Below are positions 1-34,300 of a DNA stretch of 64,000 nt, one piece after another. The DNA comes from Tricholoma matsutake (Eukaryota > Basidiomycota > Agaricomycetes > Agaricales > Tricholomataceae): the NCBI GenBank assembly GCA_026075535.2, contig AP026546.1, forward strand, positions 7,936,001 through 8,000,000, given 5' to 3'. The position numbers and the translations under genes were made by a program. Positions within the stretch are counted from its first letter, which is position 1; each line of letters opens with the position of its first letter. The notes beneath the pieces were generated by a model. It saw nothing but the letters and a program-made list of their open reading frames with translations. It had not been told where the DNA came from and ran no database searches.

Positions 1-336
1 ATGTGCAACTACAACTTCACAAAAGGCAATTTCGTGCTACTTTGAAACACACACATCGAGAAGTCCCTCAATTGCAAGATGCAACCTCAATATTTAGGTC
101 CCCTCATCATCATTGATCAAAACTATGGAGGAGCCTACATCCTTTGCGAGCTTGATGGATCAGTACTCCATTGGCCTGTTGCCACATTTTGACTCCTGCC
201 ATACCTAGCTCAAAATTTGATTCCACTCCCTCCAAATTTCCTTAACATTGACTCAGAATGTCTTGAAACACTTTGAAAAACTTCAAACATCGATGAAGAT
301 ATTCCCAAAGACATTCTGGACTTCAAAGACAATTAA
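1..336 (+). pseudogene. Ty3/gypsy integrase C-terminus (element G1, 3' end of pol)
   Basis: Frame 1 reads the tail of a gypsy integrase: a stretch of the type F-x-K-G-x-F-V-L-L, then a YLGPLIII core, a GGAYILCELDGSVL segment and a final LLPYLA. This is the usual post-catalytic region of fungal gypsy integrases that lack a chromodomain. The 5' part lies outside the window. In-frame TGA stops occur at 43-45, 190-192 and 274-276; the first two sit where family members have arginine, so CGA to TGA decay is likely. The reading ends at TAA 334-336. It belongs with the polypurine tract and 3' LTR at 5119-6216, with an antisense gene in between. Function is lost. Confidence 0.8.
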
Positions 337-594
337 TTATTCTCTTTTCTTTGTTCACAATTACTTACCTATGACCTCAATTTCTTTTAGTGTACAATAC
401 AAGTCATGATATTGCATTATGCCATGGTCATGCAAACTCCAAAAGGGTTTTTTGGCCATGATGATCTACTGAGCCTTTCCCTTTTTCTTTTACTTTTCTT
501 ATCGCTACCTTCGAGACTCACAAAATTTAAAATTGTAAAAAGAGAAAGAACTACAAAGTTTTCATTCCTCCAACATTTCCTCCATCACTTCTAT
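337..594. other. spacer between G1 pol end and the antisense gene
   Basis: AT- and CT-rich sequence with no coding signal that I can support. It separates the end of pol on the plus strand from the stop codon of the gene on the minus strand, so the two run tail-to-tail. Transcription terminators for both could lie here, but no specific signal is clear. Confidence 0.5.
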
Positions 595-710
595 CTACCT
601 ACATAAGACCTCCAATTCAACCTTCATGCCTGCCAATTTCTTTGTGAGGATCTGGTGATGCATTGCCCACTCCTCATCTACAGCCTCAGCCTCCTCGAAC
701 CCCTGGACTT

Positions 711-758
711 CCTTTGCCTTTGCCTTTGCCTTTGCCTTTGCCTTTGCCTTTGCCTTCG
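711..758 (+). repeat. (CCTTTG)7 hexanucleotide repeat that encodes Lys-Ala repeats on the minus strand
   Basis: Seven perfect CCTTTG units followed by CCTTCG. Read on the minus strand, in the frame of the antisense gene's last exon, they give alternating Lys and Ala codons. It is therefore probably a coding repeat, not a neutral microsatellite. Confidence 0.8.
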
Positions 759-765
759 ATGCCCT

Positions 766-2324
766 TAGTGTTTAAAGGTCCAGTTTGGTCCATCTTGATG
801 CCCAGCTCACCAAGACCACAACCGAACCAAATAGGACCAGTCCTATTCAGTTTGGTTGCCTCCAAAAGACTGGTTTTAACTGGTCTTACTGGTGTTTTTT
901 CGAGTATAGCTTAATTCTATTATATACTAAATAAAACTAACTACATTTACATGCTGCAAGCAGTTGCTCGCAGCTGTGGTGTATGAGAATGAAAATGAAA
1001 ATGAAAAATGAAATAGAAAATGAAATAGAAAAAAGAAACGGCCCCACCATCTCGCATTTGTAGCAAGGGTGGGGGTCCTGCATTCCTGCATGTTGTCGTC
1101 CCTGGTGTTCATCATCCCCTGTGTTCATTGTTGTCGTGTTCATTGTCCCTGCCACCTGTCATCATCCCCAGCATTCATCCCTGCTATTTGTTGTACCCAG
1201 TGTTTGTCCTCCCCGTCATTCATCCTCCCTGGTGTTTGTTGGCATGGCTGTTTGTTGGTGCAGCTGTTTGTTGTCATGGCTGTTTGTTGTTGCAGCCATA
1301 CCCACAGTTTGTTGTCCTGGCTGTTTGTTGTCCCCTGTTCATGGCTACCATCGTCATCAGCACCTCCAATTCCCCCTACAAGCAGTGGCTCATAGGCAGG
1401 TTGGTGGTGCTTGTGACATGGCAGTGGTGGCGGCCGACATTGCTGGTGGGAGGGTGGGGCTTGCTGGCCGTTGCCATGTAAGAACAGAACCTGTTGCCAC
1501 CCTGTGAGCAGAGGCTCACAGCAGTGGTGTAGGGCATGAGGAGGGGAAGGAGAGGGCATGGGTGTGTCTGTTGTTAGGTGGTAGCTGTCTTTATCAAAAG
1601 TAAGTTAGTAAAAGAAATAACTCAGATATAAAAAAACATACCATGAGGCCCAAACAACGATGAGTGTCATTTGGGCCCACTTTGCAGGTGGTGTGGTGCC
1701 AGTGTCGTTATCAAGATGCAAAAACCTAAAAATGAAGTAAGACAGGTAGTTAGTAAAAGAAAGAAGAAATAAACTATAAAAACATACCCTAGGGGGGCCA
1801 AACAATAAACTAGCATCATTTGGGCCCCCTAATTTGTGTTAGTTGGTTTGCGTGGTTGTGGTTGCAGACCAGGGTGGTGACGTGGCATGATTGATGTTGT
1901 GGTGGTAGATGTGGGAAGTCATTTGGCAAATGGCGCCACTTTGTTTTTGGGAGCACAAACATGACCACATGGTCTGTGTGCAGCCACAGGGTATATAAGT
2001 ACCCACCCAAATGACTCCTTTTCCCCTGGGCTTGTTCTACTTTATGTACATATACTATAAATAGTCATAGCATATACTTTTATTCCTGTATTTTGTATCA
2101 ACTTATACTATATATCTAGTGGTATAAACATGTCTAAAAGGCTGGTTAAGACTGGTTTCAACTGGTCTTACATTGGTTTTTGTGAGTTTACAAAAGTGAT
2201 CAACTGACAACTGAACTGACCCAAATATGGGGTGAACCAAGACCGACGGTTTGGTCTCTTATGGTTAAGTTTGGTTAAGGGTCTGGTCATTTTCTGGTCT
2301 TATGGACTGGACCCTTGAACACTA
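766..2324. mobile_element. hAT-like non-autonomous element (hAT-A)
   Basis: The element starts TAGTGTTTAAAGGTCCAG and ends in the inverted counterpart TGGACCCTTGAACACTA. It is flanked by a perfect 8-bp duplication, GATGCCCT (758-765 and 2325-2332); an 8-bp TSD is the hAT hallmark. No transposase is encoded. Near both ends there are many GGTC/CTGGTC-type subterminal repeats. The interior carries, on the minus strand, two intron-like units (GT-AG, 1726-1787 and 1585-1641) preceded by GGGCCCAAAT hairpins, plus three palindromes of the GAGC...GCTC type (near 955, 1378 and 1503). It lies in the last exon of the antisense gene, between codons of the same frame. Confidence 0.85.
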
Positions 2325-3335
2325 GATGCCCTCTTTCTCTCCTTTGCTGGTTTTGAAGGTCCTATGACTGGTTTGACTTCAGTGATGGGGCCCATGACAT
2401 GAATTTGAGGCACTTCACGATCCAAAAAATAGGTTAGCATACACTACAAAATTACTTCAACTGACTTTTGTACCTGGTTTTGGGTGTGTTGCCCATTTCA
2501 ACCCCCTGCTCTTTGTTCCCCCGACCTTTGCTGTCTTGCCCTTCCAAAGCCCCCTCCTCAAAACTCCCTCCCAATAGCATCCCTGCACTTCCTGGGTACA
2601 CTTCTGACACTTCGCTGCCCCATTGTTGATGATACACATTGGCCGACTTTTGAATTGAGTGCATTGATCGCACTATAAAAAACTGATTAGCGTTGACAGT
2701 GATTCAAAATTGTCGACTTACCTGTCCTTCAAATTCGAGAAGACCTTCCTCCTTGAATTTTGCCCTCTTTGCTATGGTTTCCTCAACTTCGACCTTGCCC
2801 TCACCCTTGCTGTCATCCTCGTCCTGTGGCAGCTTCTGCTTTTGCATCCCTAAGATGATGACCCCATTGTTGTCACTGTCGTCCTCCTCCTCACCAAGCT
2901 CTGCCCACTTGATGGCTTTGCCCTCCACCTGCAATGCAGCGCTCTGTTTTTTCAGCTCCTCCTTTGAAATCATACCAGCACAAAATTTGGATGCTAAAGT
3001 CGTCTGAGCAGTCTTGTATGCTTTGCATCGACCTTCGAGCTTCTCTGCCCTAGCTGCTGCCACCTGTTGTTTTGCTTCTTCCTCTTCCTCCTGACATTTC
3101 GCCTCCGCCATCTCTGCCTCTTCTCACACTTTTGCCTTGGCTTCCTCTGCTTCTGCCTTTGCTTTCACAATTGCCACCTCCCACTCCTCGCACTCTACCT
3201 GCTCTGCTAATTCCAAAAATAGTACTTCTCCACCCCATGGAAGCCACTCACATTGAGCCATCAGTGCGAACAAGTCACAAGCTTTGTCCATGATCTTCTG
3301 GATGGCATCTGAACATTCTTCCTTGAGACCTTCGG

Positions 3336-4788
3336 TGATAGGTCCACCTTGTCGTTCAAGCTCGGAAAATCACATCTACAATCATCGTCGAACCTCTACG
3401 AACCCATATGAACCTCTACGAACCCATGCAAACCCCTCTGAAGCTCTCCGATGCTCTACAAAGCTCTACAAAATCATGAGAATGCTTCGAAATCCTTTGC
3501 AACGCTTCGAAACTCTTTGCGACACCTCGAAATTCTTCGTATGCCTTTGGCCACTATAGTACAACTCCCCCGACCTTCGGACAGCTCGGGATAGACACTT
3601 GGAGCATTGTCGACGAGTTCCAAACCAGTATTGAGCAATATCGCAGCGATATTGGCCTTCAAACAAGTCCGATATTTTCTTGACTGACTTCAAAAATCAT
3701 CAAACATTGCAAATCAACATCGGACACTATATTGCCATCTGAATAATCATCGCACACATGCCAGACGTATTCCCTACCATTGTCAAACAATATCGCACCG
3801 ATATCAGGCCACGAATGAAGTCCAAAGAATCTTCAAAAATCTTCAAAAAACATCAAACCTCGAAAAACATCGTCGGACACAGTATTTCCTGTTCGAATGA
3901 TCTTTGGATGCATGCTGGACACATGGGACACTATATCGAGTATATTGAACACATTTTGACCGCATGTGCACGCCTACAATCCGCTTGAAGCAGTTTCCAA
4001 TCTTTTATTCAATTTATAACAAGGACAGTCCGGTTTTAGCTATTCTTTCTTATTATTTCTTCATCATGTGTTATATTCACCCCTTCTAGGCTCGCTTTAT
4101 TGTTCCAATATACTTATATTGTCTTTTGCCTCTAGTTTTCCACATGTTTGCCTCATGTTCTCTAGCCTTTTTAGGTACTTTCTTTATTTTATATAAAAAG
4201 ATGTACTAGATACAAAGAAAAACAAGAAAGTCATCGTCTTCCTCCCAGATCACAGTGATTTGAGAGTTTGGTTTAGTCTTATTCAGTCCAAAGTTTGGTG
4301 TTTTACGCTAAACTTCCTCGAAATTCCTCGCATTACACTATTTTCACTCTCGCTTCCCTCAATTAACCTTTTCTTCACTTCTACTACTCGTCTAGTCCCC
4401 CGATCTTGCATCTGAACATATCTGCACACTCAAAATTCCTCGAAACTTCTTTGAAAAATATCACAACATCTCGAAAAGCATCACGACATCTCGAAAAGCA
4501 TCGCAACACCTCGCAAATCATCGCAACATCTTGAAAAGCATCGCGACATCTTGAAAATCATTGCAACGTCTCGCAAATCATTGCAAAGTCTCACAAATCA
4601 TCGCAACCCCTCGAAAACCATCACAACATCTCAAAACACATTCTTCTAGCCTCGAACTGCTTTGACAAGATGTTGTTTTATGACAATTTGTGACATCTAG
4701 AGGGCCTCGCAACCTTCCTCTGACTTGTGTTATACCATCTGAAGCCATTTTGTGGGTTTTGTTTGGGTTTCCGGATTGAGTATCATCA
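3336..4788 (+). repeat. solo LTR, G1 family (LTR1)
   Basis: It starts TGATAGGTCCACC and ends GAGTATCATCA, is 1453 bp long and is flanked by TCGG on both sides (3332-3335, 4789-4792). Related copies are at 5133-6216, 14028-17524 (reverse) and 48571-49919. A block of about 19-20 bp imperfect tandem repeats, CATCTCGAAAAGCATCGC-like, covers 4440-4630. It has no coding content. It sits in exon 2 of the antisense gene, and removing it with one TSD copy keeps the frame. Confidence 0.85.
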
Positions 4789-5043
4789 TCGGTGAGCTCA
4801 TCGTATTCAACCTTGAAAAACATCATCAGCAGACAAAAACACTACAAAAGACATGTCAGAACTCACCATTCTCTCACAAAAGCCCTTGCCCCATATTTCA
4901 AAGCTGAGCTCTTCAGCTTTGCTAACTTTGGGCATAGCTTTTGCGAACTCGAGGACAATGGTTTCAAAGTCTTGAAGCAGTGACATGACCAGAGGATAAG
5001 TGGAACTCAAGGATGGAGGAAACAGCCAGGTTTTTGAGCCACC

Positions 5044-5049
5044 TTTATA
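5044..5049 (-). promoter_or_regulatory. putative TATA box of the antisense gene
   Basis: The minus strand reads CCTATAAAGG here, 58 nt upstream of the chosen ATG at 4986 and about 85 bp inside the 3' LTR edge. Position and sequence suit a fungal core promoter that drives transcription away from the 3' LTR. Inference from sequence only. Confidence 0.5.
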
Positions 5050-5118
5050 GGTTTTTTTCAACACAATCACGCATTTTGCATGTGACTCTGATCAGCTGAC
5101 TGGGACAGTCAGTATTTC

Positions 5119-5132
5119 AGTAAGGGGGAGGA
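5119..5132 (+). promoter_or_regulatory. polypurine tract of G1
   Basis: AGTAAGGGGGAGGA lies directly before the LTR start TGATAGG. It is the expected primer for plus-strand DNA synthesis. It fixes the orientation of G1 as plus and shows that the LTR at 5133 is its 3' LTR. Confidence 0.75.
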
Positions 5133-6216
5133 TGATAGGTCCACCTTGCACTCCAAGCTCTGGGAATGTTTCCAAATGCTTCAATACATCACCACACATG
5201 CTCCCAACCCCTATGAACCCCACAAAATGACTATGAACTCCTCAAAACCACTCCAAAACTATTTTGTGGCACTTTGAATGACTTTGAATGACTTTGATTG
5301 ACTTTGAATGACTTTGATTGACTTTGAATGACTTTGATTGACTTTGAATGACTTTGAATGACTTTGCAGCACCTTGAACACCTTCGGCCACCATATGCCT
5401 ATTGCACCACCATTCAGACACACACACCACACCTTGCACAAGTTAGTGTGTTGCATATCGAGCACTACCAGACATGAGGAGATACGACAATGCACTTTTA
5501 GGACATGATTGCGGTGCTTTGACACTTCGATGATATATTGGATCAATAGGACAGGTACTCTTGATATATTGTGACTCTACATGTTTCCCTTCTCATCATT
5601 TCTCATTTATTTTCTGATCTGGAAAGTCATTTATTGTTTTATATCTTGCCTCATGTAGTCCTCATGTTCTATTTCCTTTTTAGTACTATCTCTCAAAACT
5701 TATATAGCCTTGTACTAGCTACCTAAAAAGAAGGAAATAGATTGTCCTCTCATATCCATTGTCTGATTTAAGAGCAATTCTCTTGAGTCCAAGCCCCTCA
5801 ATTAGTCCAGAAGTTTAGCGAGTTACTGTGAACTTCCTCAAAAATTCCATACTAGCTTCTTGAAACTATTGGTCATTGTCTATCCTCTTGAGACCTTTTT
5901 GCATCACTATTGTATATCTCCATTGGCTTTCAGAACTATTCTCATTTTCTACAAAAGCTCTCGAACCTCTTCAAACTCTCTCAAACTCTCTCAAACTTCC
6001 TCAAACCTCTTTCGAACTTCTTTTGAAGCACTTTGCATAACTTAAAACCCCTTCAGACTGCAGTGAATCTTGTTAAAACCCTTCAAGCTTAGGTCCCCCA
6101 CTCTTGGTTAGCAGTGGTGATATTTAGTGCCACCTCGCACCCTTCCTCTAGCTCGTGTTATACCATCTGAGGCCTATTTGTGGGTTTTGTTTGGGTTTCC
6201 GGGTCAAGTATCATCA
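5133..6216 (+). repeat. 3' LTR of gypsy element G1 (LTR2)
   Basis: This 1084-bp copy starts TGATAGGTCCACC and ends AAGTATCATCA. It is preceded by a polypurine tract, and its right edge abuts LINE coding sequence, so G1 had inserted into the LINE. The matching 5' LTR and its TSD lie outside the window. It is shorter than the other family members and contains a private 10-bp tandem repeat. Confidence 0.8.
5270..5365 (+). repeat. tandem repeat of GACTTTGAAT / GACTTTGATT units in LTR2
   Basis: About nine 10-bp units, GACTTTGA followed by AT or TT, run in a row. The other LTR copies of the family do not show this expansion, so it looks like a recent local expansion. Confidence 0.85.
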
Positions 6217-8327
6217 CTGACCCCACCTTTGTTGCTGAGGAAACAGGGCAATACTTCACTGGACTCTACAACCGCCCAGCACCTCCTGACAAGCCCAAAC
6301 CATGGCTCAATACTCCCTCAGTCACAGCAGTCAAGAACTGCATCTTGGATGACCCCTTTCTCTGGCCAATAACTGCAACACTAGCAGACTTTTGCGCCAT
6401 GCTTCACAAAGGGAACTCACAACCCTCACCGGGCCCTGATGGATGGGAAAAATGGTGTGTCAAGAATCTTTCTGACAAAGTTCTTCAGCTTGTTCTCGAC
6501 CTTCATAACTACTCAGTCATCAATGCAAGTTTCCCTGGAAATATCAAAGACACACACCTCATCTATTTCCACAAGTGTGGGATCCAAACTGACTTGGCTA
6601 ATTGGAGAGGCCTCCTCATATCCAACTTTCTAGCTAACTCAACTATGACCTGGCTCAATTTCAAGCTCTCACCCTATGCTGCACAGATGGGTATTATTCC
6701 TGAGACCCAAGTTGCCATGCAGCCTGGCATATAGACTCGCGATATGATGAGTTTTCTCAGTGGACTGAAGACTTGGAGTCATTGCACAAAGACTCCCCTC
6801 TATCTCCTAAAGCGAGACCAGATGAAAGGTTTTGATTATCTTGCCCCACAAGGGTTTTATGATGCATGTGCTGCTTACGGTTTACCACAGGCAGTGGCAG
6901 ATCTGGACTGTGCAGCCCAATCCTCAACATGATGCTTTCCTTGAACAGCATTCAGCATCGCTGATCCTATCATTGTCAATGATGTCACCAAGCAGGGCAG
7001 ATCAATGTCGCCGTTCAAGGCCACCATCACCACTAGCCTCGGACATCGCTACCTAGACAACTTAGCATCCTCAGACCCTGACTGTGTCATCATTCAAAGC
7101 ACCTCAAAATTGGTAAACAACCCCCATCTCCTGGATGATGCAGCCTCACTACATTTCTCTATGGCCGAAGCTACTGATGACTCCTACATTGTAGCTCTTA
7201 CCTTCCCAGCCCTCCAGTGTTTTGCACTGGCCATGGAGCACTTTCAATTTCTATATGGATGGCTGACATCATGGGAAAAGACAATCTTAATTGTCTAGAT
7301 ACACCACCGAAGACCCTCCCACTACTCTTGATCACCAACATTCAGGATATTGACCCCTGGACAATCACAGAGCATGAGGTACCTGTCTCTACTAATGAGT
7401 TCAATTTTCTATGCACCCAAGTTGACGATCCCAAGACCCAATACCTGGAACTCATAGATATTATTGATAAGGCAAGGCAGGGGTAGGAGTATACTCTTGT
7501 GTTTTTGGGCTAAGGGTATGAGGGGTAAGGGTAGGGGTTTGGAAGTTCATACCCTTGCATACCCCTGTACCCTTACTAAGGGTACAGGGGTATGCCAGGG
7601 GTATGCTTATGTAAGAATATCATTTGATTTTTTCAGCTACAAAGACTCATATTCAAGATTTTCATGAATTAAATTCAGATTTTGGGATTGTCCAACATGA
7701 TAATGCCCTTCATATGTTAATAAGAGGTATTAATATGTGATATTAATAGTAAATACAACAGTTATCAACATTTTTCAAATGAAATTTGCTCTAAATATGT
7801 TGATTTTGTGCCAAACCCTTGTACCCTTGACAAACCCTCCCATACCCTTGGCAACCCTTATATGTTTCCATACCCTTACCCCTAAGGGTAGGGTGTTCAG
7901 GGGTAGGGGTAAGGGTATGAGATTTGACACCCAGGGGTAACCCCTGCCTTGCCCTAATTATTGACTCCTTCTCCTTCCCAGCTATCTTGTTTTGCACTCC
8001 CTTTATGCTTCTGCGCAAGATTATTTCACAGAACATCATTTCCCATTGTTGAGCGCTACTATCCATCCAACAAATTCTTCAAGAAGATGTGATTTGACTG
8101 GACCAAAAAATCATGAAACATGTACACTCCTGCCTTGGCTTTTCCTTCTGCCCCTCATTGACATTGTCCACCCTCCCCCTGGCACTTGGTGGATTTGATT
8201 TCCCTCTCTGGCATGCATCAATGCTGGCATCACCATTGATGGTCTTGCATGGGATTTAAATCATCATATCCCGGCCTATAGAATGATGGCTTGTATTACG
8301 TTGGCCGACTGGACTTGTCAGATCAAC
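6217..8327 (+). pseudogene. LINE (non-LTR retrotransposon) reverse transcriptase, 5' part
   Basis: The frame reads ETGQYFTGLYNRPAPP, then SPGPDGWEKW, a segment GIxTRDMMSFL, LLKRDQMKGFDYLAPQG and finally EATDDSYIVALT. These are landmarks of the reverse transcriptase of mushroom LINEs; the catalytic box reads TDD where most families have ADD. The frame breaks near 6732 (TAG), 6930 and 7298. A small hAT-type element sits at 7468-7956, after which the thumb region resumes (SFSFPAILFCTPF, then LPLALGG) up to LADWTCQIN at 8327. The 3' part is at 54256-55628. The start is replaced by the G1 insertion. Confidence 0.8.
7468..7956. mobile_element. 489-bp hAT-type MITE in the LINE
   Basis: Perfect 8-bp TSD ATTATTGA (7460-7467 and 7957-7964) flanks termini TAAGGCAAGGCAGGGG and its inverted partner TAGGGCAAGGCAGGGG. 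It has no coding capacity. The interior is full of GGGTA(A)GGGTATG-like repeats, mostly G-rich on the left and C-rich on the right. There is a perfect palindrome at 7557-7595 with 19-bp arms around one base. Confidence 0.9.
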
Positions 8328-9129
8328 TAGTGTTTAAGGGTCCAGTCCAGTTCAGTTTTTTGACCCAAAAATGTAAAGACTGCAACCTAAACCAGTCCAG
8401 GACTGACCCAGATATTGCTAGAACCAAACTGGACCACCTAGGACCAGTCCTTTCCAGTTAAAAGACCGAAAAAGACTGGTTAAGACTGGTTCAGACCAAT
8501 GTTTTGTCGTATTAAAATATAACCTATATGTATCTTAGCAAATATTACCAGGACCTTATAACCACTGTACAGATGGATAGACATTGTAATTCCCCATCAT
8601 TCGGTCTAACTTTTAAGACATTTCATCAAGATTTGACTTGGCTATGATCAATATAAAAATACATCTACTGAATGACTCGTGCTGAACACCAAGAAATGTA
8701 ATGTGACAACCATAAATTATGTGGGAGTATTATTATACATGTTAGTCCTATGATCATTAATAGAATCAAGCAAATGATCAACATATGAGTAAGATGAAAT
8801 GAAAATCAATCTGATACAACAAAATACTCATACAAAAATAGATTTGGTTATATCTTGCTCAATTCTTAACCATTTTTTATGAACCAGAGGTCGAATTTGC
8901 CGGATTTCATGTGGGAACATGGTCCAATATATGTTCCCACGATAAAATTGGTCCTAACCAGTTTAGACCAGTTTTCTTTGGTTTTACAACATTTTTCAAA
9001 ATGGAAAGACTGCTAACTGAACTGCAAAAGACCAGTCCATAAATAGACCACTGGTCCGGTCTTTTCTGGTCCAATTCAGTCCGATTTCGGTCTTTTTTTT
9101 GGTCCTATGGACTGGACCCTTCAACACTA
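8328..9129. mobile_element. hAT-like element copy D1 (802 bp)
   Basis: It starts TAGTGTTTAAGGGTCCAG and ends GGACCCTTCAACACTA. It has no coding sequence. It is almost identical to 10145-10945 in opposite orientation. Its flanks do not match each other (AGATCAAC left, TCAGTGGC right), but its right flank is the reverse complement of the right flank of the other copy, which indicates a later inversion. Confidence 0.88.
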
Positions 9130-10144: not shown

Positions 10145-10945
10145 TAGTGTTGAAGGGTCCAGTCATAGGACCGAAAAAAAGACCGAAATTGGACTTAATT
10201 GGACCAGAAAAGACTGGACCAGTGGTCTATTTATGGACTGGTCTTTTGCAGTTCAGTTAGCAGTCTTTCCATTTTGAAAAATGTTGTAAAACCAAAGAAA
10301 ACTGGTCTAAACTGGTTAGGACCAATTTTATCGTGGGAACATATATTGGACCATGTTCCCACATGAAATCCGGCAAATTCGACCTCTGGTTCATAAAAAA
10401 TGGTTAAGAATTGAGCAAGATATAACCAAATCTATTTTTGTATGAGTATTTTGTTGTATCAGATTGATTTTCATTTCATCTTACTCATATGTTGATCATT
10501 TGCTTGATTCTATTAATGATCATAGGACTAACATGTATAATAATACTCCCACATAATTTATGGTTGTCACATTACATTTCTTGGTGTTCAGCATGAGTCA
10601 TTCAGTAGATGTATTTTTATATTGATCATAGCCAAGTCAAATCTTGATGAAATGTCTTAAAAGTTAGACTGAATGATGGGGAATTACAATGTCTATCCAT
10701 CTGTACAGTGGTTATAAGGTCCTGGTAATATTTGCTAAGATACATATAGGTTATATTTTAATACGACAAAACATTGGTCTGAACCAGTCTTAACCAGTCT
10801 TTTTCGGTCTTTTAACTGGAAAGGACCGGTCCTAGGTGGTCCAGTTTGGTTCTAGCAATATCTGGGTCGGTCCTTGACTGGTTTAAATTGCGGTCTTTAC
10901 ATTTTTGGGTCAAAAAACTGAACTGGACTGGACCCTTAAACACTA
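10145..10945. mobile_element. hAT-like element copy D2 (801 bp), inverted relative to D1
   Basis: It starts TAGTGTTGAAGGGTCCAG and ends TGGACCCTTAAACACTA. It is nearly identical to the reverse complement of 8328-9129. The right flank GCCACTGA is the reverse complement of TCAGTGGC at 9130-9137, so this copy originally had a proper 8-bp TSD in the integrase gene of G-III. Confidence 0.88.
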
Positions 10946-12894
10946 GCCACTGAGTCAAATCTGCTATCAGGAATTGGTAAGGGGTGCAAGGGTCCGGCTC
11001 ATTTAGAGGTGCTTGCTTTGTTTCGCTGGCAGTTGGGGCATCCAGGTACATATCCACATGCCAAGTCTCTTTGCATGTTGGGCCAATAGAAGTTGTCGCG
11101 CAGATTAGTGTAAGATTTCTCCATTCCAAAGTGGCCGAGGTTGTCATGGGCCAGTTGGAAAAGGTGCTCACGAAGGTGTTTGTATTTGGGAATAATCAAG
11201 CAATTCCCAATGAAAAGTAGGCTGTGCCTGAGATTGATGTGAAGCTTTGTGTCTACAACTCCTTGTTTAAGATCATCGAGGATACCGATGCACCAAGGGT
11301 CCTCTCGATACCCATTTTTGATATGCGTGATGAGTTTTGGGTCACTCTATATGGTGAACACAGAGGCAGTGATCAAGATGGAGGATTTCTCATTGACAGA
11401 GTCAGGGAGTCAGGACAGTGCATTGGCGACCATATTTCATTCACCATTGATATATGTGATTGTGTATTCATACTGAGACAGATACTCCATCCATCGTGCT
11501 TGTCGTTGGGAAAGGTCTCTCTGGAAGTCAAAGTTTTGCAGTGTCTTGTGGTTGGTATGGATGTGGATGTGTGTTACAAGTAATCAACTCTCCACTTTTG
11601 CAGCGCTTGCACGATTGTGAGCATTTCTTGTTCATGAACAGGGTAGTTTCATTCAGCACTATTCAGCTGTCTGCTCTCGAATGCAACAGGCCAGGCTGAC
11701 TCCCATGAGGGGCCAAAGGCAAGGATGGCGCCCATGCATTGCTTGCTAGCATCGCACGTCACAAAAATCTTGTTATCTCCGGGACCTTTGTTGTCAATTG
11801 TCATGAGGCAGTCCCAGCTCACAACCAGACATTTTATGCTCTTGAATGCATATTGGTGTATTGAGGTCCACTGTGGGAAGGAAGTGTTGCATTCTTTGCG
11901 TGTGAGCAGTGTCAGGACAGCCATGTGTTCTGCAAGTGTCAGCAGGAAAACTGAGATATATCTGACTAAACCCAGGAATTGTCAAACATGTTTGGCTGAT
12001 TTTGGTGCTGGCCAGTTAAGGATCCATTTGACTTTGGAATTGTCAGCCTCAATCCTTCCCGCTGAGATGTGATGGCCAAGGAAATCAATCTCCGTCGTGA
12101 ATAATGTTGATTTCTTTAGAGAGCAGCATAATTCAGCTTTCTGAAGGGCCTTGAGGATGAGTGCCATGTTTGTCCTGTGTTCTGCCAGTGAATTAGACCA
12201 GATAATAATGTCATCCAGATAAACGTGGCAAATCTTCCCTATGTAGTCCTTGAGTGCAAGAGTTACTCATTGCTGGTGTGTTGCAGGTGAGTTCCTCATG
12301 CCCATTGGCATTACCACCCATTCCCATAGTCTGAATGGTGTCAGCATAGCTGTGTATTTGACATCATCAGGGTGCACCAATGTTTGAAAGAATGAGTTTG
12401 TCATGTCTATCTTCCCCCAGATCTTCCCCTTTGCGCAGTCAGCAAGGATATCATCAATACATGGTAGGGGATAATTGTTGGGAATGGTCAAGCGATTCAG
12501 GTGCCTGTAGTCATTCACCCATCATGGTAGTACCGTTCGGTCAGTCTTTGGGATGATGAAGGAAGGAGAGGCATATGGGAGATGAGGAGGGCTGAATTTG
12601 ACCAGCAGCAGCATGTTGGTCAATCAGTGTCTTCCACCCAGCGTGGTATTTTCAGGGGCATGCATAAGTGCGAGCAACCGAGATGGGTGCTCCAGGGAGA
12701 AGCTTTATATGGTGGAAAACATCTCATGGGAGATCCTTCACATGGGGAATGTCGGTTGGGAACCAGTCGGCATATGATTCTTTCATTTTTTTGTCCAATT
12801 TTAACAGTGTGGCTTCTCCAGCAAGTTGTTCGATCTGGCTTTTGATTGACGCAATGATATCTGGTGGTCCAGTAGTGAATGGTTCCATGTTGAA
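10946..12894 (-). pseudogene. gypsy G-III reverse transcriptase, RNase H and integrase zinc finger
   Basis: Read from 12894 downwards: a pre-RT region FNMEPFTTGPPD, then KLLPGAPISV, RT motifs WVNDYRHLNRL, KIDMTNSFFQT, VMPMGMRNSPATHQQ and the catalytic YLDDIIIWSN near 12220. RNase H follows (VTCDASKQCMGAILAFG), then an integrase zinc finger with His-His (LAHDNLGHFG) and CPNCQRNKAS near 11010. Stops and frame changes are scattered. The first half (gag and protease) is at 50487-52235. The two halves share TTGAA and a continuous frame, so G-IV was inserted here. The integrase core continues in the inverted segment at 9130-10144. Confidence 0.85.
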
Positions 12895-16031: not shown

Positions 16032-17524
16032 GATTTATTTTGTGGGTACTTTATGAAATTCACCAAGTCTGAAGTCCTTTGAGCTCACATCTAATTGACT
16101 TATCATTTGGTTGAAATGCATTCCACTTGGACTCCACTTGGACTCCAGTGGGGGATTGAACTCTACATGACTTAGTGTAGTTCAATTGGACTCCACTCAG
16201 ACTCCACTCAGACTCCAGTTGGACTCTGGTCAGTCCAGTCAGAGTCCACTAGGACAGGTGGGGGACTGTAAAGTACTGGTCACCTGTCAGACCGACCATC
16301 AAATAGTCATAAAACAACTGCTTGTTGAAGCAGTTCAAAGCTAAAAGAATGTGTTTTGAGGACTTGCGATGATTTTCGAGGAGTTGTGATGATTTTCGAG
16401 AAGTTGCGATGATTTTTGAGACATTGCGATATTTTTCGAGGTTCTTTCAAAGAAGTCTCGAGTAATTTTGAGTGCGCAAATATGTTTGGATGCAAGATCG
16501 GGGGACTAGACGAGTAGTAGAAGCAAAGCAAAGGCGAATCGAGGGAAACGAGAGCAAAAATAGCATAATGCAAGGAATTTCAAGGAATTTCAAGGAAGTT
16601 TAGCATAAAACACCAAACTTTGGACTGAATAAGACTAAACTGAACTCTCAAATCACTGTGATCTGGGAGGAAGACGATGACTTTCTTGTTTTTCTTTGTA
16701 TCTAGTACATCTTTTTATATAAAATAAAGAAAGTACCTAAAAAGGCTAGAGAATATGAGGCAAACATGTGGAAAACTCAAGGCAAAAGACAATATAAGTA
16801 TATCAGAACAATAAAGCGAGCCTAGAAGGGGTGAATATAACACATGATGAAGAAATAATAAGAAAGAATAGCTAAAACCAGACTGTCCTTGTTATAAATT
16901 GAATAAAAGATTGGAAACTGCTTTGAGCAGATTGTATGCATGCACATGCGGTCAAAATGTGTTCAATATACTCGAGATAGTGTCCCATGTGTCCAGCATG
17001 CATCCAAAGATTGTTTAAATAGGAAATACTGTGTCCGAAGATGTTTTTCGAGGTTCAATGTTTTTCGAAGATTTTCGAAGTTTCTTCGGACTTTGTTCAT
17101 GGCCCGAAATCAATGTGATATTGTTCAACAATGGTAGGGGATACATCTGGCATGTGTGCGATGACCATTTGGATAGCAATATAGTGTCCAATGTTGATTT
17201 TCGATGTTTGATGATTTTTGAAGTCAGTCGAGGAAATATCGGACTTGTTCGAAGGCCGATATTGCTGCGATATTGCTCAAAACTGGTTTGGAACCCATCG
17301 ACAATGTTCCAAGTGTATATCCTGAGCTGTGTGAAGGTCAGGGGAATTGTATTATGGCAGCCGAAGGCATACAAAGAATTTCGAGGTGTCATGAAGAATT
17401 TCAAAGCATTCTCGTGACTTTGTAGAGCTTTGTAGAGCTTCAGAGGGGTTCATATGGGTTTGTAGAGCTTTGACAACAATTGTAGATGTGTTTTCCAAGC
17501 TTGAACAACAAGGTGGACCTATCA

Positions 17525-18490
17525 GCGGCTAACTTGCTGGATCACTGAGGTTTGAAAACTGGCAGAGGAACACATGAATGACACAAAGCGCTACCTAGAG
17601 GCAGCAGAGGATTTGCAGTGTATGCCTAAGAGACAGGCTTTGGCCAACCCATCCCAAAACTCAAACACCGTGGGTGGTTACAAACCTCGTGGGTCTGCTG
17701 TAGCGGCGGGCACGTCCAACTCTGCTGCTGGTGGCTCCTGGAAACCACCGCATCTTACAGATAACAAATGCTCATTGCTTTTTAAACACCAGGGATGCCT
17801 TAAGTGTTGACATGGATACCAAAGCCACCATGCTGGAGAATGTCCTAATGACTTCCCAGATGGCTGGAACTACAAAGAGATTACTGAAGACATACTGCTT
17901 GGGCACAAGAGACAAGTCAATGTGCCATCTGGAAGCAAACCTGTTGGAGTGGTTACTGGTAACACGAGCCATATCGAGGAAGTGTTGGAGGAGGAGAATT
18001 CTTTCATAGCAGGCACTGTGATGCCATCAGCAGTTTTGGGATCTGGTTCTGAGTCGGAGGAGGAGGAGGTAAGCCCACTCACAGTGCTGCATCTGCGATG
18101 GCCATGCACGTTAATGGGGCCTGCTGCTGATGAACCTGTTTCAGTGAATAGTATGCTGGACTGCGGTGCACATGTTGTGCTTATTGACAGCACATTTGTT
18201 GAAGAATTGGGTCTTCATCGTTTCCGCTTGCACAAACTGTTACTGATTTCCGTGGCACTGAACAACTTGGCCAGCTCCAAAAGCCACCTGTATGAATATG
18301 TGAAGATCGCACCTTATTCCCTTGACTCTGCATGGACCTCTCAAACATTAAAAGCTGTTGTTATGCCAAAATTATGTGTACTGCTCTTACTTGGACTGCC
18401 TTTCCTTAGTGTAAATCACATCATTGCCAATTTCAAATTACGTTCAGCTATTGATAAAATGAATGACTACAATTTATTGAAACCTCTGGT
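17525..18490 (+). pseudogene. G-IV gag zinc-knuckle region and protease
   Basis: The reading continues gag after the solo LTR: NDTKRYLEAAEDLQCMPKRQ, a Ser/Gly-rich linker, then a damaged knuckle CLKC, stop, HGYQSHHAGECP near 17810. From 17922 a protease domain is read. Its active-site triad reads D-C-G (SMLDCGAHVVLID), whereas functional aspartic proteases have D-S/T-G. The sequence ends at NYNLLKPL, where a hAT element with TSD CCTCTGGT is inserted. Confidence 0.75.
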
Positions 18491-24130: not shown

Positions 24131-25225
24131 ACATCTTTCAGACAAAGCCCAGACAGACCTCCGACAGGAGCATCGACATCAGGAAGAACCTTGTGGTATA
24201 GATACCAAGGTCGACTAGTACAATACTCAGAACCAACACAAAGGTGGTTCTCGAAGCAAACAGAAGACGAGGAACCAAGATACCTCACTGAAGAAGACTT
24301 CAGATTAACAAGCAAAGAAGAAACCCCAGAATGAGACCCATTCTCCTTATCCAATGACGACATCCCCGATAACATGTCTACTGAACCCACCACATCAAAC
24401 AATGAGATTAGAATCTGAACCCCCTCCAACTTCACAGGGGACCGAACTAGAACTGCAAAGTTCTTACAAGAAGTGAAACTCTATCTGAGAGTAAACCATG
24501 GAATCTATGACACAGATGAAAAGAGAATCATCTTCGCATTGTCATTTATGAATGGAGGAACCGTCGTACCCTGGGCACAGACATGGGCAGAAAAGAAAGA
24601 CCTAGGGACATGGCCAACCTTTGAAACGGTGCTCAAAGTAGCATTCACCCCGATCGATGAAGCTGGCAGAGCCAGAACCAAAATGAAAACACTAAAGCAG
24701 GGACAGGACCTGGAGGATTACATCGCGCAATTCCAAATCCTGCGAGAGAAGGCAGGGATCAATGACGATACTGCCCTCATTGAACTCTTTATGGATGGGT
24801 TGAACCCCAAGCTCCTCAAAAGAGTTTTCAACATGGAAACGATCCCTACGACCTTGGAAGGAATGATCAACGCCACCTCCAAGTATGATGGACAATGGAG
24901 GAGAGCAAAAGCCATAGCAGGGAGGCTGCAGGAGACTTTTACGAAGAAGCTCCCGGCCTCTAAGGCAAAGGAAACCCCACTCGAGATCAACCGCCTCTCC
25001 TACCAGGAGAGGATCGAACACATGAAGAAAGGGTTGTGCTTTGTGTGCCACCAGCCCGGACACAGAGCAACTGAACACAAGAAAGGGGAAACAAGGACTG
25101 AGGACCAGCCTTTCCCAAAGAACAAAGGCAAAGAAGCCTACCCGAAGATCCAAGCGATCTTGAACAAACTCGATGGAAAAGAGAAAGCGACTGCTGTCAC
25201 TGCCATCGGAGATGAGGGTTTTTAA
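24131..25225 (+). pseudogene. G-I gag
   Basis: From about 24131 a Pro/Arg-rich N-terminus is read with TGA stops at 24332-24334 and 24416-24418. From 24431 the capsid region is open: FLQEVKLYLRVNHGIYDTDE, GGTVVPWAQTWA, FTPIDEAGRARTKM and GLNPKLL. The zinc knuckle CFVCHQPGHRATEH near 25040 is C-x2-C-x4-H-x4-H, with His where the canonical knuckle has the last Cys; G-II has the same His. The frame ends at TAA 25223-25225. In the same place G-II has an ATG (46964), but here the site reads ACATC, so the start is unclear. Confidence 0.85.
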
Positions 25226-25239
25226 AGGGGTGGCCTGCC

Positions 25240-28200
25240 TCGATGCCAGGTACCACTGAACTTTCCATCTGCTCTGTACTACTAGCCACTTTGAAAAATC
25301 AATCTATGCACTTAGATGTCAAAGTGGCAGAGACAGGCAGAGGAAAAGACATTGAAACCGAAGCCCTACTCGACTCAGGAGCGGGAGGGATATTCATGAG
25401 CCATGAATTCGCATAAAGCAGTGGATTTGAATTGCACCCCCTGGAGAGGGTAATCAGAGTCAAGAACGTGGATGGAACCCCAAACAAGAGAGGGGAAATC
25501 TCCCACTGTGCCAGAGGACTCTTAACAATCAACGGAAGGACTTTCCCAACGACCTTTCTGATTGCAGGACTGGGAAAGGAATCAATCATCCTAGGTCTGC
25601 CATGGCTCAGAAGGATCAACCCAGTGATCGACTGGAAGATCGGAACCTTCCAGTTCAGGATGAAGGACAAGACTTACCCAGAGTTCTCATATGGAAAAGG
25701 AAGAACCCTTATTGGTAGGGTACTGACCAAGAAAACCAACAATGAACACCTGTCATGGCACCGAAGGGGAACTGAAAATAAGAAGAACCCCCTTGACATG
25801 ACAAAAGAAGAACGACAGGCATGGTGCCGAGGCATCATTGCTAGAGATCAAGAAAAGCTTGCCCTCAAGAAGAAGACTGCCGAGGAAGAACAAGCACAAT
25901 GGAAAAAGGTGGCCACCAGAGAACTGGAGAGACTGGCCACCAGAAAAGAAGAAGGACGACTGGCATCAGCCTGAATAGTCACGAAACTAAGGGAAATGCT
26001 TACCCCAAAGAAAGAGAAACCAACAAATGAAGAACAACGAGCGGATTGCCGAAGAATCGTCGCCAAGGCAAGATTAATGGGGGGAGCCCTCCATGCTGAA
26101 CCAAGAGGAAGCAAGATGCCCATCGAGACAAGAAAGGCGATGATTGAAGAAATAGAAGATGAAGAGATCGCGATCACGACTCTTCAGAATGCGGAACCCA
26201 TTGGGCTGCAAGATGAAGAAGACACTGGGAAGGAAAACCCAGCACAGGCAAACCACGAACAGGCAACGGAACAGGCAATGGAACAGGCAATGGAACAGGC
26301 AATGGAACAACCGAAAGAGACACCCACACCAAAGATCAAAGATGACGAGCTACTGGCCGCCTACATCCAAGGAGAACCCATCATTGGAATATTTGAACCA
26401 GCTAAGACACTGCTGACAGAGGAATATGACGAGCCAAGATACGGATATTCTCAGATGATGAAGAAAATCTCTCGGATCGTGAAGGCAAAAGGATCACTGC
26501 GATATGCTTATGGACAAAACATCTGGATTAGGGCAAAGACATCGGTCTCTCAACACCTGACACACAAGAAGGAAGGAGACCCTGAACAGAAGACCCTAGA
26601 TGAACTACTCCCTGAACAGTACAAGGAGTACCGATGGATATTCGAAAAGGAAGCATCGGAACGATTCCCAGAATCAAGAGCCTGGGATCATGCGATTGAA
26701 CTGAAACCAGACTTTGTAGCAAAGGATTGCAGGGTTTACCCATTGTCACCGGCAGAACAGAAGAAACTCGATGAGTTTCTTGACGAAAGCCTGCAGAAGG
26801 GATACATCCGACCATCGAAATCACCCATGGCGTCGCCATTCTTCTTCGTTGTGAAGAAGGACTCGGATGTGCTATGACCCTGCCAAGATTACAGGTACTT
26901 GAATAATGGGATGATCAAGAACACCTACCTGCTGCCACTGGTAGGAGACCTGTTGGACAAACTAAGAGGGGCAAAATGGTTTACGAAATTGGACATCCAA
27001 TGGGGATATCACAATGTCAGGATCAAAGATGGAGATCAATGGAAAGCAGCCTTCAAGACAAATCAGGGGCTGTTTGAGCCAATGGTGATGTTCTTTGGAT
27101 TATGCAACTCACCAGCGACCTTCCAGGCGATGATGAATGAGATATTCCATGACATGATCGGAGAAGGATGGCTCGTGATTTACATGGACGACATCCTGAT
27201 ATTCTCCAAAGATCAGAATGAACACCAGGAAAGGACAAAGAGGGTACTGCAAAGACTGGCAGAGAATGACTTATACCTGAAGCTGGAGAAATGCAAGTTT
27301 GATGTCCACGAAGTGGAAATCTTGGGTCTGATCATCTGACCCAATGAGATTGCCATGGACAACACGAAACTGGCAGGTATACAGGATTGGCCAACCCCGA
27401 CAAACATAAAAGCAGTCAGATCTTTCCTGGGATTTGGAAACTTCTACAGGAAGTTTATCGGACATTTTGCGGAGACAAGCAGACCGCTTAATGAGCTGAC
27501 GAAGAAGGACAAAATGTTCAACTGGACAACTGAATGCAAACAGGCCTTTCAGACACTGAAAAGGAAATTTGCAGAAGCACTGGTACTGCTGATGCCAGAC
27601 CCGACAAAGCCATTCATGATCGAATCAGATGCCTCAAAACATGTGACAGGAGGAGTGCTGAGACAAAGGGATACAAATGGAGACTGGCATCCATGCGGAT
27701 ACATATCGCATGCGCTGACACCAACGGAACAGAACTACGAGATATACGACAGGGAACTTCTGGCGATAGTACAATCACTGGAAACTTGGAGACACTACTT
27801 GCTGGGTTCAGAACACCCAGTAGTAATCCTCTTGGATCACAAGAACCTAACGTACTTCCGGACAGCACAGAAACTGAACAGATGACAGGCAAGATGGAGC
27901 TTATTCCCATCAGAATTTGACTTGCAACTCGTCCACATACCTGGATCTCAGATGGTACAGAGCAATGCGCTATCATGGAGAGCAGACCATATACCGGAAG
28001 AAGACAATGATAATGAAGACGTCACGATGCTGCCAGAAACAGTATTTGTGAAATTCATTGATACCGAAATGCATGATTTACTCGCTGGGAGTATCATGAA
28101 AGATGACCTGGTGAAGAGCGCAATCGAGGCACTAAAGACCAAGGGAATGCCACCGATAAAGTCGGCACTAGAAGATTGGAAAATAAAGGATGGCCTTCTA

Positions 28201-29499
28201 TTTTTCCGAGACAGATGCTATGTCCTGGACAACAGAGATCTACGGAAGAAGCTGGTGCAAAAGTACCATGAAGGAGTAACCAGTGGACACCCGGGACAAT
28301 GGCAGACTACTGAAATGATCAGGAGGGACTACTGGTGGCCAGGAATGATGACATACATCAAGAACTATGTTGCTGGATGTGCCACATGCCAGCAAATGAA
28401 GGTCAATACCCACCCGACGACACCCCCACTGCAACCGATCAAATCCAAAGCAACGAGACCATTTGCGATGGTGATGACAGATTTTATAACCGACTTGCCA
28501 GAGTCCGATGGTTATGATGCACTCATGGTCATGGTAGACCATGGGCTTACAAAGGGGGTAATTTTTATCCCTTGCAGGAAAACGATAGATGCATTGGGAG
28601 TGGCCACCCTCTACCTAGACAATGTCTACAAATGATTCGGCCTCCCAGACAAGATCATCTCCAACAGAGATCCCAGATTCACCTCGCAGCTGTTCCAAGA
28701 GCTAGGAAGGCTGCTCAGAATCAAGCTGGCAATGAGCACAGTGTACCACCCCCAGACTGACGGGGAGACAGAATGGGTGAACCAAGAAGTGGAAGTATAC
28801 TTACGGATCTTCTGGTCGAACAACCAGGAGAATTGGAAGCACCTCCTCCCAACCGTGGAGTTCACGCACAACCAGAGAACGCCCTCCATACAGAAGAACT
28901 CCCCGTTCTACCTCATTATGGGCTATGAGCCCAAGGCGATCCCACTCCCCTACCTGAAGACAAACATACCGGCCATAGAAAAACGAATAGTTGCACTGCA
29001 ATGGGCCCGAGACAAAGCGAAGGCAACTCATGAGTTGGCCAGACAAATGATGGTGGAAAGAATGACAAAACACTTCACCCTGTTCAAAGAAGGAGACAGA
29101 GTGTGGCTAGAAGTGAAGAACCTCAGAACAATGCACCAAACGAAGAAGCTCGCACCGAAAAGAGAAGGACCGTTCTCTATCGAGAAGGTCCTAAGCCCAC
29201 TCTCCTATCGACTGAAGTTGCCAGAACAGTGGAAAATACACCCAGTATTCCACGTGGCACTTCTTTCCCCATACAAAGAAACTGAGACACATGGACCAAA
29301 CTTCCCAGAACCACCGCCCGACCTGATAGAAGGCAAATCAGAGTACGAAGTGGAAGCGATCATTGGACATAAGAAGAAAGGAAGGACCATGCACTTCTTA
29401 GTGAAGTGGGTCAGATACCTGACCTCGGAGAACTCATGGGAGCCCGAGGGAAACCTGAAACATGCCAAGACAATCCTAGGAACATATAAACAGCAATGA
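25240..29499 (+). pseudogene. G-I pol (protease, RT, RNase H, integrase, chromodomain)
   Basis: The protease reads ALLDSGAGGIFMSHEF with a TAA at 25414-25416. A Glu/Gln-rich linker follows, including an EQAMEQAM repeat near 26270. RT motifs are [40 protein letters not shown] and [11 protein letters not shown] near 27185. RNase H reads [14 protein letters not shown]; the integrase has GHPGQWQTTEMIRRDYWWPGM, MTDFITDLPESDGYD and YHPQTDGETEW. The chromodomain is EYEVEAIIGHKKKGRTMHFL, and the frame ends at TGA 29497-29499. Stops also at 25972, 26875, 27337, 27883 and 28633, most of them TGA where CGA or CGG is expected. Confidence 0.9.
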
Positions 29500-31341: not shown

Positions 31342-34300
31342 TTAAGTGGGTAATGAACCAGGTTTTTGCAGGTAGCGGGTGTGAAAATCTGCAAGGAGTT
31401 CTTGGGCGTGCTCAAGTTCTGTAACAGGTAGCCAGGAGGTCTCTTCATCGGTTCCCTGGTAACCTTCCCATTGGACAAGGTAGAGAATCTTGCAGCGATG
31501 TTGGTTGTCAACTTTGGAGTCGAGGACTTCAGCAATCTCATATTCAAGCTCGTCGTCGATGGTGATCAGAGGAGGTGGAGGTTGCACTTGATTTGGAATT
31601 GTGTTCGGGGAGTGTTTCTCTAGTTGAGAGACATGGAAAACAGGGTGAATGGCCCGCATGTGATCCGGGAGCTGCAGAGTGACTGAGTGAGTGCCCAGGC
31701 GGGCGATGATTTTGAAGGGCCCATGGTGCTTTTCAGAAAGTTTCTTGGAGGGATGAGTGGTGCAGATATTTTCCGCAGTGATGTAGGCAGAGTCACTAAT
31801 GTTGAAGTCAGGTGCAGGTGCCCAATGTTTGTCTGCAGGACCTTGATAACACTCTTGAGCAGCCGCAAGCTGTTTCCAAAGCTCCTGATGAAGGTTGTCT
31901 AAGTCGACGATGAACTCGTGGGCACGCTGTGAAGCTAAGTCGCATTCTGGAAAAATGGAAATGTTCGGGTGATAGCCTTTGTTGGCAAAGAAAGGGGATA
32001 CACCTGTAGAGGCAGAAGGAGCATTGTTGTAGGCAAATTCACCCAAGGGTAAGAGGTGAGACCAGTCGTCCTGCTGATAGTTGCAGAAGATCTGGAGGTA
32101 CTGCTCCAGGGTTTGATTAAGTCATTCTGTCTGACCATCACCTTGTGGGTAATAACCGGAAGTGAAATGGATCTGCATGTCGAGCGCTTTTCTGAGGGAG
32201 CGGAAGAAATGGGAGACAAACTTGGATCCCCAGTCGCAAGTGACATGCAATGGAACGCCATGCTTGGAGAAGATGTGGAGGACAAACAGGTTGGCTAGTT
32301 CTTGGGCTGTGATTTCATTGACAGTTGGGATGAAGATGCCTTGCTCGGTGAGGCAGTCAATGATGACCAGGATAGCGGTGTGACCATTGGAGTTGGGTAG
32401 TTGTTCAATGAAGTCCATGGAGATGGAGTTCCAAGGTCGTTCCGGAACCGGAAGTTGCTTTAGGAACCCGTAGGGCTTGTGTCGGGGTGATTTGGATTGT
32501 TTGCAAGTGGTACAGGATTTGCAGAATTCTTGCACAAAGGTGCGGAGGTTTGGCCAGACATATTCCCGGCAGACAAGCTGCTGGGTTTTGTTTTGTCTGA
32601 AGTGGCCAGAGAGGATGTGATTGTGTTTGTACTGAAGGACTTTGAGGCAAAGATCCACAACGTCCAGAACATAAATCCGGTTGAAGTGGTGGAGAAGACC
32701 TGCCTTGTCTATGGCCCAGTTGGGGTTGGTAGGTGTCAGAAGATGTGCAGATGAAAAGGGGTCAAGGGGTAGGGAGGTGCAGATGTCGTGGTGAAGTTTC
32801 TCAACATCCATGATTACTGCTTGTCGAAGGACGGGTGTGGTGAAATAGGTGGCGCAGAGGGAAGAGGTGAGCTGTTCCTGTGTGAATACAGGTCGGAAGT
32901 TGGTTGGGTTTACAGAGGCAAAGTCGCTATTTCCCCCTTTGCAGTAGACGAGTGAGTGCATCTGGTTTGGCCCCTAGTTTTCCAGGGCGGAAGCGGATGA
33001 CAAGATTGAACTGGGAAAGGTACTCAGACCAACGGGCCTGGCGGCAGGTGAGCAACTTGGTAGTGCTGAAGTACTCAAGAATTTTGTGGTTGGTGACCAC
33101 ATCAATCAGGTTTGTGGAACCCTCAAAATACTGCTGCCAGTGTTTGAAAGCTTCGAAAATGGCCAAGAGTTCCTTATCATGGGTGTTGTAATTTAGTTCA
33201 GCGGGATTGAAGGAGCAGGAATGAAAAGTGACTGGATGGATTTCTCCATCCGCAGTGTAAACCGAAAGGATAGCCGCTAGGGCGTAGTTGGAAGCGTCGG
33301 TTTTGAGTACCATCTGTGAGTCAGGTACCCATTGTGTTAAGATGGGGGCATGGGTGAATTCTTGTTTGAGCTTTTCAAAAGCGTCACGGCACTTCTTGTT
33401 GAAGTCCCATGGTGCAGATTTCTGCGTCAAGTGGGTGAGTGGGATGACAATGTCTGAATAGCCATTAATGAAGCAGTGGTAAAAGTTGCAAAAGCCTAAG
33501 AAGGATTGAATGTCCTTAACTTTCCTAGGCTTGGGCCAGTCAAGCACGGTTTTGACTTTATCCTCGGACATCCGCAGTCCATCTGGTGAAAGGATGAAAC
33601 CCAAATATTTGACAGTGTCTTTGTGGAACTCACATTTCTGTGGAGAGGCGTAAAGTCCATTTTTCTGGAGACGGCGGAGGACTTCTTTGATGTGAGCCCT
33701 GTGCTGGGACTTGTCATCGGAATAGATTAGGATGTCATCGAGGTATACGATGACACAAACATCCAGCATGTCACTGAAGATGTCGTTCATAAACCGCTGG
33801 AAAGCTGCGGGTGCATTAGTGAGCCCAAAGGGGACCACCAACCACTCAAAGGATCCGTAGTGGGTGCGGAAAGTAGTTTTCCACTCATCACCATCAGTGA
33901 TGCAGACTAGGTGATAAGTGTGCTGCAAGTCTATTTTGGTGAACAAGCGGGCTTTGCGGGGAGAGTCAAGTAGGTCGGAAATGAGAGGAAGTGGGTAGTG
34001 GTCTTTCTTTGTAAGACGGTTAAGTCCTCGGTAGTCAACACAAAGTCAGAGACTACTGTCCTTCCTCTTGACAAAGAGAATAGGGGTGCCATGTGGCGAC
34101 TTGGATGGGCGGATGAAACCTGAGTGGACGTTTTCATCAATAAAGACTCGTAAGGCTTCTAATTCAGAGGGGGAGAGAGAATACATTTGGCCCAGAGGCA
34201 GAGGAGTATTGTCTTCTGTCTCTATCTTGAGGTCGTAAGACCGATGTGGAGGAAGGGTATCTGCTTTAGTCTTATTAAAGACATCAGCAAATTCATGATA

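Follow-up and report, generated by a model that had tools for sequence, protein, structure and literature searches.

The first 6,216 positions of a 64,000-nucleotide window of the Tricholoma matsutake genome (C9:7936001-8000000; 161,040,721 bases in 13 contigs, the single genome analysed) hold the 3' part of a Ty3/gypsy retrotransposon, G1. Between the end of its pol gene and its 3' long terminal repeat (LTR), a gene of four exons runs on the opposite strand. Related copies of the element carry this antisense gene at the same place, in the same orientation and with the same three introns, and its protein sequence is under purifying selection that is specific to the reading frame. The copy in the window is interrupted by two insertions and carries a single in-frame stop codon.

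On the plus strand, pol ends at 1-336 with the C-terminal part of the integrase (integrase match at C9:7936007-7936330:+), which contains three in-frame TGA codons. The antisense gene is read towards it. Exon 1, of 120 nt, occupies 4867-4986 on the minus strand, with the ATG at 4986, and is followed by intron 1 (4812-4866, GTGAGT..CAAG). Exon 2 consists of an initial 23 nt (4789-4811), placed against the other aligned loci, and a Glu/Lys-rich main part (2722-3335), in which the in-frame TGA is located at 3124-3126. Intron 2 (2673-2721, GTAAGT..ATAG with CTAAT) precedes exon 3 (2474-2672), which holds a six-cysteine cluster with the spacing CX2CX8CX8CX2CX6C. Intron 3 (2413-2473, GTACAA..GAAG with CTAAC) leads to exon 4, whose proximal (2325-2412) and distal (595-757) parts were both recognised by profile matches. 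The distal part starts with a (KA)n tract, and the stop codon lies at 595-597.

Exon 2 is split by a solo LTR of a related family (3336-4788, plus strand, 1453 bp, TGATAGG..ATCATCA), which is flanked by the 4-bp target-site duplication (TSD) TCGG at 3332-3335 and 4789-4792. Exon 4 is split by an element of 1559 bp (766-2324) with the ends TAGTGTTTAAAGG and CCTTGAACACTA and the 8-bp TSD GATGCCCT at 758-765 and 2325-2332; its duplication length and inverted ends are those of what we take to be a hAT-like element. Sequence related to this element is also present at ~52.9-54.2 kb of the window. The LTR family TGATAGG..ATCATCA forms three long stretches in the window (3336-4788, ~16300-17527 and ~48571-49922) and many more genome-wide.

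With the insertions set aside, the coding length is 120 + 633 + 199 + 248 nt plus the stop codon, which gives 1203 nt by coordinate arithmetic. This reproduces the sum, with one internal stop, of a first-pass annotation made from the same sequence, and the pol end, polypurine tract, 3' LTR, four minus-strand exons and both insertions were found again at the positions given there. Its range of 5119-6216 for tract and LTR together does include the polypurine tract (5122-5132, plus strand); the LTR proper (TGATAGG..ATCATCA, plus strand) is confined to 5133-6216. In the 8.8 kb upstream (L059), pol is interrupted by ~2.9 kb, no match to the 3' LTR marks a 5' LTR, and the gag pieces used as queries found no match.

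Distribution of the gene among Ty3/gypsy elements

Relatives of the gene and of the integrase were collected with a piece of exon 2 and with the integrase tail as queries. Each search returned at least 150 matches (150 of 543 candidates scored for the gene, 150 of 628 candidates for the integrase). Among the matches listed, 77 of the 150 for the gene lie within 5 kb of an integrase-tail match, compared with 1.5 on average (5 at most) when they were placed at random 200 times, so the pairing cannot be attributed to chance. Within 10 kb, 79 of the 150 listed gene matches pair with a listed integrase, and all 79 lie on the opposite strand with the integrase 3' of the gene, the commonest gap among these listed matches being ~890 bp.

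Besides the window, 48 distinct loci were inspected, 34 of them picked for their similarity to the gene and 14 for that to the integrase. The latter came from the 71 of the 150 listed integrase matches that have no listed gene match within 10 kb, and in all 14 the gene is present on the strand opposite to the integrase. Intact members lacking the gene, which the first-pass annotation had regarded as fatal to its proposal, were thus not encountered in this sample. A convergent integrase of the lineage accompanies the gene at 47 of the 48 loci. Gene and integrase tail both fall within the fetched locus in 44 cases, convergent in every one; the integrase tail lies farther away in L034 and L038, on the expected strand by coordinates, and in L014 the integrase core was found on the expected strand in an extended locus (L061). 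The sampled homologues are therefore not situated mainly at non-transposon loci, the other outcome that would have spoken for a chance association of gene, LTR and pol.

Paired LTRs are preserved in L043 (757-1767 and 7777-8787, 94% identical, 1011 bp) and in L039 (93.5% identical over 767). In Pfam searches with the pol of the lineage, Asp_protease_2 and Integrase_H2C2 scored above their own cut-offs, and RT_RNaseH_2 (E 5e-6) and RVT_1 (E 0.025) below theirs. With paired LTRs enclosing protease, reverse transcriptase (RT), RNase H and integrase, the lineage belongs to the Ty3/gypsy LTR retrotransposons. No chromodomain was matched in the pol pieces scanned, including the last 109 aa of one copy, for which the sole Pfam match was a sub-threshold SH3_Tf2-1; the pieces scanned thus lack the chromodomain that ends pol in chromoviruses. 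Distances between gene copies correlate with those between the integrases (Mantel r 0.64 and 0.71, with 0 of 2000 permutations as high, 43 loci), which fits common inheritance.

Two other gypsy pol regions are present in the window, at 24419-29499 on the plus strand and ~31342-34045 on the minus strand, with an end that appears chromodomain-like by eye. Their RT is 20-23% identical to that of the lineage with the antisense gene. The gene profile found nothing in these two regions or in the 4-kb stretches behind other integrases (L062, L063), and weak tblastn matches to the gene in such stretches (best E 4e-4) have no profile support. Judged by these four other gypsy stretches, the antisense gene looks like a trait of one lineage. 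A further gypsy family (e.g. C6:4624572, C1:2463503, C2:1614576) has many open frames of 1314 aa around the integrase zinc domain; frames of exactly this length suggest recent copies. The window also contains an inverted repeat of 783 nt (8327-9109 versus 10164-10946) with 98% complementarity and arms 1054 nt apart.

Outside this genome, relatives of the RT are numerous in the protein database (1030 matches) and occur in several Agaricomycete genera; Meripilus, Mycena, Grifola and Sphagnurus are among the names of the 120 matches listed. A protein search with a single 301-aa open reading frame (ORF) of the gene family gave no match, nor did one RT or the gene profile match anything in IMG/VR. 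Such results are no proof of absence in other fungi for an intron-bearing gene that changes faster than pol.

Gene structure, selection and the predicted protein

The exon–intron structure was compared in 19 aligned gene copies, 10 of the main group and nine of other groups; L023 and L053 served as position references and agree with the intron positions by construction. Three introns of 44-61 nt occupy matching positions in the 19 copies. They start with GT in 56 of 57 cases, end with AG in 56 of 57, and contain a CTRAY site in 47 of 57. Exon 1 measures 120 nt in 17 of the 19 copies, and the exon phases are consistent save in copies with small insertions or deletions. Between the divergent copy L015 and the main group, nucleotide identity is 0.47-0.58 in the introns and 0.56-0.73 in the exons. 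That the introns are less conserved than the exons and yet keep their splice signals points to splicing. Introns are rarely kept in retrotransposons, as those on the sense strand would be lost by splicing and copying back. The antisense introns can persist through retrotransposition: the genomic RNA has sense polarity, and antisense splice sites are not read in it.

Stops in exons 1-3 of the aligned copies are TGA in 25 of 28 cases, which fits the decay of CGA codons and thus of CpG sites. The available text of one study reports CpG hypermutation for the T. matsutake genome (PMC6980582).

Purifying selection, which the first-pass annotation had proposed to look for, is evident in the main group, in a second group and in comparisons across groups. 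The median dN/dS of the main group is 0.33 (36 pairs, nine copies), compared with 0.59 and 0.78 in the shifted frames, and becomes 0.29 (21 pairs) after two frameshifted copies are dropped. For L015, pN/pS is 0.33 against 0.98 and 1.02 in shifted frames, and for the second group of five, from which L055 was left out because of a frameshift, it is 0.30 against 0.68 and 1.26. Three pairs between groups gave dN/dS values of 0.11, 0.21 and 0.25, with dS near saturation, against 1.0-1.4 in shifted frames; in two of five between-group pairs, dS was saturated. The integrase tail has a dN/dS of 0.30 (14 copies, 91 pairs). Median amino-acid p-distances are 0.58 for exon 2, 0.37 for exon 3 and 0.24 for the integrase. 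Selection on the protein implies that the element probably uses the gene to control itself or its host.

The predicted protein comprises ~370-400 aa with a long helical region, the six-cysteine cluster and a basic tract. Eight of the 19 gene models have in common an N-terminal exon, a middle rich in Glu and Lys, the cluster CX2CX8CX8CX2CX6C with YW behind it, and a basic tract rich in Lys and Gly. All six cysteines are invariant in the eight aligned proteins. Their spacing recurs in 40 of 48 loci, searched in six frames over the whole locus, and in none of the 48 after a single shuffle of each.

Comparison with known antisense genes

The HBZ gene of human T-cell leukaemia virus type 1 (HTLV-1) is a spliced antisense gene that starts near the 3' LTR and encodes a regulator. 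The matsutake gene is likewise antisense, begins near the 3' LTR and is predicted to be spliced. In contrast to HBZ, its protein has no bZIP match in Pfam, and its promoter candidate is internal and not in the LTR. Fungal Zn2Cys6 transcription factors (PF00172) have the spacing CX2CX6CX5-12CX2CX6-8C. The matsutake protein resembles them in its six cysteines, its CX2C pairs and the presence of a helical region in the same protein, but its first loop is X8 instead of X6, and its cluster follows the helical region, ~60% along the protein. None of the eight members scanned matches PF00172, from whose pattern the spacing CX2CX8CX8CX2CX6C departs.

The brtn gene of Boty-like elements is reportedly the subject of Zhao et al. 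2011, Virology 417:248. In papers that cite it, brtn is reported as an extra gene lying antisense behind pol and ahead of the 3' LTR of Boty-like gypsy elements in Botrytis cinerea and Sclerotinia sclerotiorum (PMC7264820, PMC4227169, PMC8365987, PMC5987419); the gag-pol of Boty is stated to have a CHROMO domain (PMC4227169), and brtn to be missing from the last B05.10 annotation (PMC8365987). The likeness to the matsutake gene lies in a fungal gypsy element with an antisense gene at this position. Compared by description only, the two differ in that Boty has an ascomycete host and a CHROMO domain in gag-pol, whereas none was found in the matsutake pol pieces scanned. The suggestion of the first-pass annotation that fungal gypsy elements may encode an antisense gene holds here, but as brtn has been described in Botrytis, going by those partial accounts, a fungal case was already in print, though not from mushrooms. 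No description of an antisense gypsy gene in a mushroom was found in the literature searched, where most subscription journals fell outside.

The plant genes known as aORF-3R include gene23 of Grande, RIRE2 and the antisense ORFs of Retand with TRP28; the excerpts available describe them as present in most copies, propose them as nuclear regulators and report an antisense promoter upstream of the Grande gene (PMC7264820, PMC11963269). Like them, the matsutake gene is encoded antisense behind pol and ahead of the 3' LTR. It is found in most copies and is conserved about as well as pol, being present with its integrase in 47 of 48 loci and in 14 of 14 integrase-picked loci, with a dN/dS of 0.33 against 0.30 for the integrase tail. 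It differs from the plant genes, in a comparison of sequences judged by Pfam alone, in lacking the TRP28 domain of Retand: TRP28 (PF04195) was not among the Pfam matches of the eight members at E up to 1. Its three conserved introns are a further difference, introns being unmentioned in the portions of the plant accounts at hand (PMC7264820, PMC11963269). Membership in the TRP28, bZIP and Zn2Cys6 families was rejected, since none of them has a Pfam match among the eight members. New against this background are the lineage, the presence of the gene in nearly all sampled copies, introns at conserved positions, the six-cysteine cluster and the evidence of selection.

Possible role of the antisense protein

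The gene is probably an antisense accessory gene encoded by the Ty3/gypsy element, with a product that may act as a nuclear, nucleic-acid-binding regulator tuning the element. Minus-strand transcription would start from the gene's own promoter, between the polypurine tract and the ATG. A candidate is the TATA motif TATAAAGG at 5042-5049 on the minus strand, ~60 nt upstream of the ATG, which is present in all 10 aligned main-group loci and in the window and was not seen in the nine aligned copies of other groups. The first-pass annotation had placed a TATA motif beside the LTR; the motif is indeed there, though between the polypurine tract and the ATG and not inside the LTR. The antisense transcript would be spliced and translated to the ~370-400-aa protein, which may pair via its helical region and bind nucleic acid with its cysteine cluster and basic tract. 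In the nucleus it would tune the element, most likely by affecting transcription from the LTR or its silencing, as HBZ acts in HTLV-1. The cysteine cluster, helical region and basic tract agree with the earlier suggestion of a possibly DNA-binding antisense regulator and make DNA binding plausible; no domain match accompanies them.

Several findings weigh against the regulator. No more than 32 of the 150 listed matches are free of stops in the exon 2 piece, so that most sampled copies are broken, and no lineage integrase lies within 6 kb of L013, one of the 48 loci (L060). The protein has no significant Pfam match (best E 0.03; eight members scanned), and PDB sequences gave none at E up to 1. 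The profile of eight gene models finds one homologue outside the genome, the metagenome ORF P0121, which is 58% identical over 49% of the first row of the profile and apparently reads on into intron 2. For the cysteine exon, AlphaFold gave a poor model that is not usable (pLDDT 54). AlphaFold runs with P0121 and two window pieces (three sequences) gave a long helix (30-86) in the middle region; the best parts of the P0121 model reach a pLDDT of 80-90, and much of the remainder falls below 50. One frame on the opposite strand also has a low dN/dS of 0.41, which may be affected by undefined pairs in the sorting. The low value is expected, because this frame shares its third positions with the gene. 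On the strand opposite exon 2, a gene was rejected: the three frames there carry 0 to 11 stops. The strand is not closed, with a stop-free frame in two of the 19 copies (L043, L054) and few stops in several others, but none of its frames is kept open across the copies.

An alternative that seems unlikely, though it deserves a hearing, is that the protein acts on RNA, binding unspliced element RNA in a Rev-like or nucleocapsid-like manner for export or packaging. Its basic tract and cysteine cluster would suit this role, and a conserved noncoding block downstream of the pol stop, between the two convergent genes, could be the target. This block (390-481, plus strand, in the window) is recognisable in all 17 loci of alignment A3, from all groups, with a core near GGGTTTTTYGGCCATGATGATTTACTGAGCCTTTCCC; L023, L041, L044 and L053 are among its members. 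Between L015 and the main group its identity is 0.84-0.89, above the 0.56-0.73 of the exons. The folding evidence is weak, however: RNAalifold gives -8.9 kcal/mol with compensatory changes in 8 of 22 pairs, several pairs are broken in 3 to 5 of the 17 sequences, and a comparison of window positions 1-6300 with Rfam gave nothing at E up to 0.5. The block is equally explicable as the shared 3' end of two convergent transcripts, and either an RNA element or such an end is possible.

It is quite improbable that the gene was captured once from the host and is carried along passively. A host gene taken up in reverse orientation would, by reasoning alone, keep its introns. Against passive carriage stand the presence of 47 of 48 sampled loci in the element, the selection and the co-divergence with the integrase, although these points bear on the origin of the gene and not on its present use.

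The idea that the antisense RNA itself is functional, as a natural antisense RNA with an incidental reading frame, has very little in its favour. It is favoured by strict conservation of the TATA box in one group, and the accessible text of PMC7264820 discusses such regulation for plant elements. However, strongly diverged copies show purifying selection specific to the frame and keep their cysteines invariant, which points to a protein, and the kept splice signals in introns less conserved than the exons point to splicing. Chance open frames in repetitive DNA, which the two interruptions and one stop of the window copy and the open opposite-strand exon 2 frames (a stop-free one in 2 of 19 copies) might suggest, are refuted by the frame controls, the conserved introns and the random placement.

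The accessory regulator allows a bolder extension, which is speculative and rather doubtful. The gene might represent an undescribed class of fungal retroelement regulators, in which a multi-exon antisense gene encodes a six-cysteine protein directed against host silencing (by CpG methylation or RNA interference) or able to switch the element from a sense to an antisense programme and back. The conserved block separating the convergent genes would be the target of this protein, and the gene could then be an old and general feature of the gypsy lineage in mushrooms.

Antisense genes of LTR elements are known from plants and from the ascomycete Boty, and the question of their function becomes approachable here. 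The introns give a clean test, because a spliced minus-strand read can come solely from the antisense gene. As nearly every sampled copy has the gene, with conserved introns and frame-specific selection, its function can be tested against many natural copies.

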